DNA from: Elusimicrobia bacterium GWA2_56_46
Lineage (GTDB): Bacteria > Elusimicrobiota > Elusimicrobia > Elusimicrobiales > UBA9959
DNA length: 54,382 bases
Assembly (NCBI GenBank): GCA_001799575.1
Contig: MGTT01000012.1
Span: forward strand, 1-54,382
Direction: 5' to 3'
Part shown: positions 13,101-13,540 of the stretch, piece after piece
Layout: every line of letters begins with the position of its first letter
How positions within the stretch are numbered: the first letter of the stretch is position 1
Position numbers and translations under genes: made by a program
The notes under the pieces: generated by a model
Databases searched by the model: none
Told to the model about the DNA's origin: nothing
Seen by the model: only the letters and a program-made list of their open reading frames with translations

Positions 13101-13194
13101 AAATATATTCTAGCAAAATTTTCCGCGCCGCAAGCCGGCGCGGAAAATGCCGGTATGAAATGTAGTATAATTTATGGCGTAGTCGTATAAATAT

Positions 13195-13502
13195 TCCCCG
13201 GTAGCTCAATGGTGGAGCGATCGGCTGTAAATGTTGCAGCTTCTACGGGAAACCGTAGTTGAAAAATCAGGTGAACTCAGGGGAACCCGCCTTAGGCGGG
13301 CAATCCTGAGCCAAGCCGCGGACAGTTCCGCGGAAGGTGCAGAGACTATCCCGCAAGGGAGTACTGTTCTTAGAGATAAGGATGGGAAGCGCCTGAGTCC
13401 GTAAAGAGTAAGTGCTCCACGGATATGATATAGTCCAAGCTCTGAAGTAATTCAGAGGCCCTTGTAACCGATAGGTTGTTGGTTCGAGTCCAACCCGGGG
13501 AG
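13195..13502 (+). tRNA. tRNA-Asn(GTT), split by a group I intron
   Basis: Exon 1 is 13195-13228 and exon 2 is 13465-13502. Joined, they give a 72-nt tRNA: acceptor TCCCCGG/CCGGGGA, D-arm GCTC/GAGC, anticodon stem ATCGG/CCGAT around the 7-nt loop CTGTTAA (anticodon GTT), variable loop AGGTT, T-arm GTTGG/CCAAC with TTCGAGT, and discriminator G. CCA is not encoded. The intron lies between the second and third anticodon bases (positions 35 and 36). Without splicing there is no usable anticodon loop, so the gene depends on intron removal. A TATAAT-like box lies at 13166-13171. Confidence 0.93.
13229..13464 (+). ncRNA. Self-splicing group I intron (IC3-like) inside tRNA-Asn
   Basis: 236-nt intron without an ORF. 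P1 pairs exon-1 GGCTGT with the guide GCAGCT (13236-13241), giving the required U-G pair at the 5' splice site. The last intron base is G (13464). P2 is CTACGG-GAAA-CCGTAG (13243-13258). The core sequences GGTGCAGAGACTAT (13336-13349) and GATATAGTCC (13427-13436) match the conserved R and S segments and form P7. CAATCCTGAGCC belongs to the P4/P5/Q region, and CCCGCC/GGCGGG and CTCTGAA/TTCAGAG form P5 and a P9-type hairpin. The core closely resembles the IC3 introns of cyanobacterial tRNA-Leu(UAA). A bound guanosine would start splicing. Confidence 0.92.
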
Positions 13503-13506
13503 AAAA

Positions 13507-13540
13507 ATTCAGGCCGCCATCATGGCGGCCTGAATTTTTT
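13507..13540 (+). terminator. Terminator after tRNA-Asn
   Basis: A 14-bp perfect inverted repeat (13507-13520 with 13522-13535, core AGGCCGCCAT/ATGGCGGCCT) runs straight into TTTTT. It starts 4 bp after the tRNA. Confidence 0.88.

Follow-up and report, generated by a model that had tools for sequence, protein, structure and literature searches.

The tRNA-Asn(GUU) gene at positions 13195-13502 of the window (by which we mean the whole stretch of 54,382 nucleotides analysed here) is interrupted within its anticodon: a group I intron of 236 nt (13229-13464) separates U35 from U36 and is a copy of a tRNA-Asn group I lineage for which no published description was found in the open-access literature. 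Given that the same insertion occurs in phage-like contigs and two archaea as well as in many bacterial phyla, and often encloses a DNA-cutting gene, it looks like a widespread mobile element. It is very probable that the window intron represents an endonuclease-free copy of such a widespread mobile group I lineage, specific for position 35/36 of tRNA-Asn.

Once 13229-13464 is taken out, the exons join into a full-length tRNA-Asn(GUU) in which all stems are paired, and a boundary displaced by a single base in either direction disrupts the tRNA, which leaves only one splice point. ARAGORN calls a tRNA-Asn with an intron at 35-36 when introns are allowed and calls no tRNA in the window when they are disallowed. 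Rfam cmscan returned a match to RF00028 at 13218-13457 with 86.4 bits (cut-off 50; E 1.1e-20), covering model positions 1-253 of 253; this is the single Rfam match in the window and the single RF00028 match in the genome. The marks of group I splicing are all present in the window intron, namely the U·G pair at the 5' splice site, the guide in P1 and the G at the end of the intron. An earlier note on this DNA had recognised the insert at 35/36 of tRNA-Asn as a group I intron and had proposed a covariance-model check. That reading is supported, the check gave the RF00028 match of 86.4 bits, and the exon and intron coordinates, the terminal U and G and the guide that it had described proved exact. 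The locus is laid out as follows.

13166-13171, plus strand: TATAAT, a possible (weak) -10 box judged from the sequence, 23 bp upstream of the tRNA
13195-13228, plus strand: 5' exon of tRNA-Asn(GUU), ending in CUGU (bases 32-35); perfect fold once spliced; ARAGORN intron 35-36
13223-13241, plus strand: P1, in which GGCUGU (13223-13228) pairs with the internal guide GCAGCU (13236-13241), with the U·G at the splice site and a 7-nt loop
13229-13464, plus strand: group I intron, 236 nt, with a final G (omega-G); RF00028 86.4 bits; covariation over 20 relatives
13243-13258, plus strand: P2 hairpin with a GAAA loop; covariation at all 6 pairs
13267-13273, plus strand: 5' strand of P3, partner 13390-13396; 100% paired, double changes at 3 pairs
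13276-13310, plus strand: P4-P5 domain
13311-13337, plus strand: P6/P6a; the main helix of P6a covaries at all 6 pairs
13344-13348, plus strand: 5' strand of P7, GACUA, partner UAGUC at 13431-13435, the guanosine-binding helix; invariant in 20/20 and in a pseudoknot with P3
13349-13385, plus strand: two extra hairpins between P7 and P3, P7.1/P7.2-like, at 13349-13360 and 13364-13385; covariation
13397-13424, plus strand: P8; double changes at 5/6 pairs
13440-13457, plus strand: P9 with a GUAA tetraloop; double changes at 6/7 pairs
13465-13502, plus strand: 3' exon of tRNA-Asn, beginning UAACC; CCA not encoded
13502-13540, plus strand: probable intrinsic terminator, a perfect inverted repeat of 18 bp with a final T run, directly 3' of the tRNA (by eye and fold, -29 kcal/mol)

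The inverted repeat at 13502-13540 was not among the calls of a terminator scan of the window. Upstream of the TATAAT at 13166-13171 no -35 match was found, and a promoter scan made no call there.

The end of the exon together with the intron is predicted to fold 5.4 sd better than 200 dinucleotide shuffles, and the predicted fold contains P1, P2 with its GAAA loop, P3, P4, P5, P6a, P8 and P9 with its GUAA loop; P7 was entered as a pseudoknot on top of it. When 20 relatives without an ORF, taken from several phyla, are aligned, standard pairs fill 91.3% of the pair cells, as against 72.7% in shuffles and 35-48% when the partner strand is slid, and both sides have changed at 51 of the 76 pairs. 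The two helices of the P3/P7 pseudoknot core are both paired in 100% of the cells over the 20 sequences, P3 with compensatory changes and P7 without any variation. Moreover, compensatory changes occur at three of the four pairs of the 13349-13360 hairpin and at all nine pairs of the 13364-13385 hairpin. The anatomy of the intron and its covariation are thus matters of direct observation, as is the distribution described below; splicing and function of the window tRNA-Asn may be presumed from the sequence.

Relatives were sought in the genome collection with a pattern joining P7 to the 3' exon of tRNA-Asn, which matched at least 112 stretches. Among the 112 matches listed, 90 give a complete tRNA-Asn(GUU) when the insert at 35/36 is removed, and the remaining 22 were not accepted (truncated loci, 5' exons that went unscored, or chance matches). 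The search of related genomes that the earlier note had recommended has in this way found the 35/36 insertion in at least 90 stretches and in many phyla. Among the hosts are Omnitrophota, Nitrospirota, Cyanobacteriota, Elusimicrobiota, Pseudomonadota, Bacteroidota, Planctomycetota, Rokuibacteriota, Acidobacteriota, Stahlbacteria, Margulisiibacteriota, many lineages of Patescibacteria and two Pacearchaeota, the names being those of metagenome bins, with one Klebsiella label that is probably wrong. The Rfam cut-off was reached by 15 of the 17 diverse loci tested. Together with 14 introns from the window's family, the 90 from the matches listed make up a set of 104 introns of 190-710 nt; every one of these introns at 35/36 (104/104) has CUGU before and UAA after the insertion, with U at the exon end and G at the intron end, and almost all of them show the guide GCAGC. 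Counted by the exact pattern, and hence as lower bounds, at least 27 of 341 Elusimicrobiota genomes, in scattered families, and at least 47 of 380 evenly drawn genomes from the phylum of a WWE3 bacterium carry the intron.

Other RF00028 matches were also seen in the window's family. Three of them (L040, L044 and L046) lie with tRNA-Ile and tRNA-Ala on contig G011:C317, a locus that is probably an rRNA operon, and L045 (G007:C132) has 23S-like flanks and holds an ORF. L041 (G016:C154) and L059 (G071:C14), with 50.6 and 88.4 bits, are without a recognisable tRNA-Asn host, and tRNA-Asn is intact in both of their genomes, G016 and G071.

In the two Pacearchaeota, the tRNA-Asn genes (L069 at 1918-1975 and L072 at 1318-1374, with the introns upstream) carry group I introns that match RF00028 with 83 bits (L069) and, in a per-genome search, 78.8 bits (L072). 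L069 adjoins the gene of a universal archaeal KH protein (arCOG04150), L072 adjoins Taw3, and both tRNA-Asn have the archaeal G1-C72 pair; contamination is rejected on the strength of these neighbours and of this pair. The 39 archaeal group I introns described by Nawrocki 2018 (PMC6125680) are all in rRNA, whereas the host of L069 and L072 is an archaeal tRNA-Asn.

The host genome of the window (G000), that of an uncultured member of the Elusimicrobiota, is 98.8% complete in 30 contigs and has 42 other tRNA genes, none of them for Asn. A pattern search of this genome gave no match to an uninterrupted tRNA-Asn, so that the second gene named earlier as a sign that the window copy is a pseudogene did not turn up. 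Since tRNA-Asp(GUC), tRNA-Ile(GAU) and tRNA-Ala(UGC) were likewise not found, the host genome alone is no proof of a sole copy; these three are probably missing through assembly gaps and possibly through interruption of their genes. For tRNA-Asp, a second interrupted gene was considered and set aside, as it was not found at all in the host genome and a gap is probable. Over 59 genomes of the same family, an intact tRNA-Asn is present in 31 of the 44 without the Asn intron and in none of the 15 with it (Fisher p 9e-7), and the genus is itself divided, with the intron in G000 and G001 and an intact tRNA-Asn in G002 and G003. Further, 25 of 27 intron-bearing genomes of other phyla are without an intact tRNA-Asn. 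Across intron-bearing genomes the interrupted gene is accordingly the sole copy with few exceptions, and the window locus is probably the only tRNA-Asn gene of its host. The exceptions among the 27, a Saccharicenans (L092/L254) and a Burkholderiales (L129/L255), also hold an uninterrupted tRNA-Asn; bin mixture, duplication or recent invasion are possible explanations of such double genes.

No HNH ORF was found in the window intron. Five members of the family (L032, L034, L035, L039 and L065) carry one in the P1 loop, which is expanded by an ORF of ~100 residues that extends into the intron core. Over the set of 104 introns, an HNH ORF or its remnant is present in 30, seemingly intact in 22, and in every case it lies downstream of the 5' splice site and ahead of the guide. 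The 19 ORFs that were aligned have a mean column identity of 71%, with invariant C..CGY, HH and C.NCH.E motifs, and 16 of them match Pfam PF01844 (HNH) at E <= 0.01, a weak match (best 8.4e-6) that in single ORFs tested lies below the curated cut-off of Pfam. In L063, a member of the same intron clade as the window copy, an internal deletion has left only the beginning and the end of the HNH ORF, and L103 has such a deletion as well. The earlier statement that there is no homing endonuclease therefore holds for the window copy but not for close relatives, which have the gene or its remnants in the P1 loop. The consequence drawn from it, that the intron is vertically inherited or mobilised in trans, is not supported as it stands, in view of the HNH genes and remnants at the same spot in relatives. 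Given that close relatives have a P1-loop HNH gene and others its remnants, it is simpler to assume that a mobile intron lost its ORF, and the window intron presumably lost its HNH ORF rather than never having had one. Taken together, the relatives appear to represent successive states, from the vacant site through the intron with a complete HNH gene and the intron with an eroding ORF to the intron that has no ORF, where the window copy stands; a homing cycle would be expected to leave such a pattern.

The same pattern also finds tRNA-Asn genes with ~200-nt introns in viral contigs. One of these contigs (L197, 232 kb) has a tRNA-Asn intron of 844 nt; here the additional sequence is placed after the P5/P6 region and before P7, outside the P1 loop. 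Group I-like introns are also seen in viral tRNA-Lys genes (UUU, CUU) at 35/36 and in tRNA-Thr(UGU), the loci being L178, L182, L190, L193, L195, L200, L204, L208 and L214. In the tRNA-Lys introns at 35/36 the guide is altered to a GAAGC-like sequence that matches the new exon. Viral contigs often encode relatives of the HNH protein: 568 were confirmed, and 80 neighbourhoods (L266-L345) from among them were kept. Of the 74 kept neighbourhoods with a tRNA nearby, 41 have an intact tRNA-Asn(GUU) as the nearest, mostly 9-66 nt downstream of the matched viral HNH segment. After removal of duplicates, 34 of 63 HNH segments adjoin an intact tRNA-Asn, compared with 6% of the other tRNAs there (binomial p ~1e-24). 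The HNH family is linked to tRNA-Asn independently of the intron. These HNH genes (L266-L345) are free-standing and located in phage tRNA arrays. The phage introns known at the time of an earlier review were all in protein genes, despite the many tRNA genes of phages (Hausner 2014, PMC3984707).

A tree of the intron cores, which is weakly resolved over its 220 columns, gathers almost every cellular Asn intron into a single group, which is separate from the Leu and Ile introns and has some phage introns intermixed. The introns of the window's family, L032 excepted, form one clade with a support of 98/99; L032 groups with introns of Nitrospirota and Rokuibacteriota and has their different P7-P3 domain. 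A tree constrained to include L032 in the family clade is worse by 48.6 log units (AU p 0.064), and a single acquisition that includes L032 is disfavoured by the tree and formally retained at that p value. A separate acquisition of the L032 intron, that is, two acquisitions in the family, is suggested; directions of intron transfer between lineages are presumptive.

It could be argued that the intron is ancient, was always endonuclease-free, descended vertically and was lost from those relatives that are now without it, and the single supported clade (98/99) of the family introns other than L032, along with the lack of an intact HNH gene in most family carriers, would agree with such a history. 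However, the intron is patchy in the genus, the family and the phylum (at least 27 of 341 genomes, in scattered families), sister introns have an HNH gene at the same spot, one as an internally deleted remnant, and L032 has a deviating P7-P3 domain and falls with the introns of Nitrospirota. We regard vertical inheritance as unlikely.

It is very unlikely, and still less probable than vertical inheritance, that the intron is dead and sits in a pseudogene, with the real tRNA-Asn gene hidden in an assembly gap. The three other tRNA species missing from the assembly would be in keeping with this, but the catalytic helices are all intact and conserved, the exon pairing is perfect, and 15 of 15 intron-bearing genomes of the family and 25 of 27 distant ones are without an intact copy, for which assembly gaps are not credible each time. 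Protein-spliced tRNA introns are the rule in archaea, and two of the relatives are archaeal, which might bring to mind a bulge-helix-bulge or some unrelated insertion in place of a group I ribozyme. Yet the full-length RF00028 match, the P3/P7 pseudoknot, the guide and the terminal G are found in the window and its relatives, and the archaeal L069 and L072 reach 83 and 78.8 bits. A bulge-helix-bulge or random insertion is rejected on the covariance match and the covariation, and its probability is close to nil.

If the window intron is indeed an endonuclease-free copy of a mobile lineage, its precursor transcript would fold and be cut after U35 with the aid of exogenous GTP in a self-splicing reaction, whereupon U35 would be joined to U36 and a functional tRNA-Asn released. 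HNH-bearing members would spread by homing, in which the HNH protein may cut an intron-free tRNA-Asn gene at the anticodon arm, a putative target that is nearly invariant across bacteria, and repair of the cut gene would copy the intron in. The window copy would have lost, or never gained, its HNH gene and would now be maintained by splicing alone.

Overall, the same position of tRNA-Asn harbours an intron in bacteria of many phyla as well as in two archaea and some phage-like contigs, whereas in open-access reviews the group I introns of phages spare tRNA genes and those of archaea are in rRNA only. One set of relatives displays what may be the stages of a homing cycle at a single site, and the candidate endonuclease target is conserved across nearly all bacteria. 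With a little more confidence than doubt, we suggest that one mobile system specific for tRNA-Asn(GUU) links phages, bacteria and archaea, its HNH family being free-standing beside phage tRNA-Asn and also inside the 35/36 intron, and that it has crossed into archaea and made an essential tRNA of many species dependent on a ribozyme. Moreover, since standard tRNA annotation misses the intron-split tRNA-Asn, many uncultured genomes may only seem to have lost tRNA-Asn.

The group I introns of bacterial tRNAs are given for Leu, Ile, Arg and fMet in open-access reviews and surveys, and our search, confined to that literature, found no report of one in tRNA-Asn. The earlier remark that an Asn host is unusual is correct in so far as Asn is not among the hosts named there, and it is an understatement given how widespread the insertion is. 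A claim from 2017 that cyanobacterial tRNA-Arg, Gly and Lys contain short introns (PMC5733544) was not accepted as a precedent, the sole size stated, ~22 nt, being far too small for a ribozyme.

The IC3 introns of cyanobacterial and plastid tRNA-Leu(UAA) are likewise small ribozymes of the anticodon loop, with GNRA-type P2 and P9 loops and the core motif GGTGCAGAGACT, which is present in the window intron and in one cyanobacterial tRNA-Leu intron examined. In contrast to the Asn intron at 35/36, they sit at 34/35 in another tRNA, are placed outside the main Asn group in the intron tree and, in L229 and L252, run from P7 straight into P3. The IC3-like core of the earlier note thus stands as a common motif but not as an assignment: two extra covarying P7-P3 hairpins are missing from cyanobacterial tRNA-Leu introns, so that GGTGCAGAGACT is a shared core and not evidence for IC3. 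A plain IC3 intron, with P7 joined to P3 without stems, is rejected on account of the covarying hairpins at 13349-13385, of which L229 and L252 have none.

Similarly, the group I introns of bacterial tRNA-Ile(CAU), tRNA-Arg and tRNA-fMet share the anticodon loop and a patchy distribution with the window intron but have other hosts and sites, and the tRNA-Ile introns L250 and L253 have another 3' end structure and fall outside the chromosomal Asn group in the tree. Those of tRNA-fMet can encode an endonuclease. In the Michel-Westhof scheme, P7.1/P7.2 stems between P7 and P3 mark subgroup IA. Subgroup IA (for example phage IA2) is alike in these extra stems and in its frequent HNH endonucleases, and unlike in that the IA examples of the open-access literature interrupt genes for proteins or rRNA. 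The window intron has two covarying stems of this type and other 35/36 introns have one or none. Finally, the LAGLIDADG group I introns of CPR and archaeal rRNA (PMC11270868, PMC6125680) are mobile and occur in the same host groups, but it is in rRNA, and not in a tRNA, that they are found.
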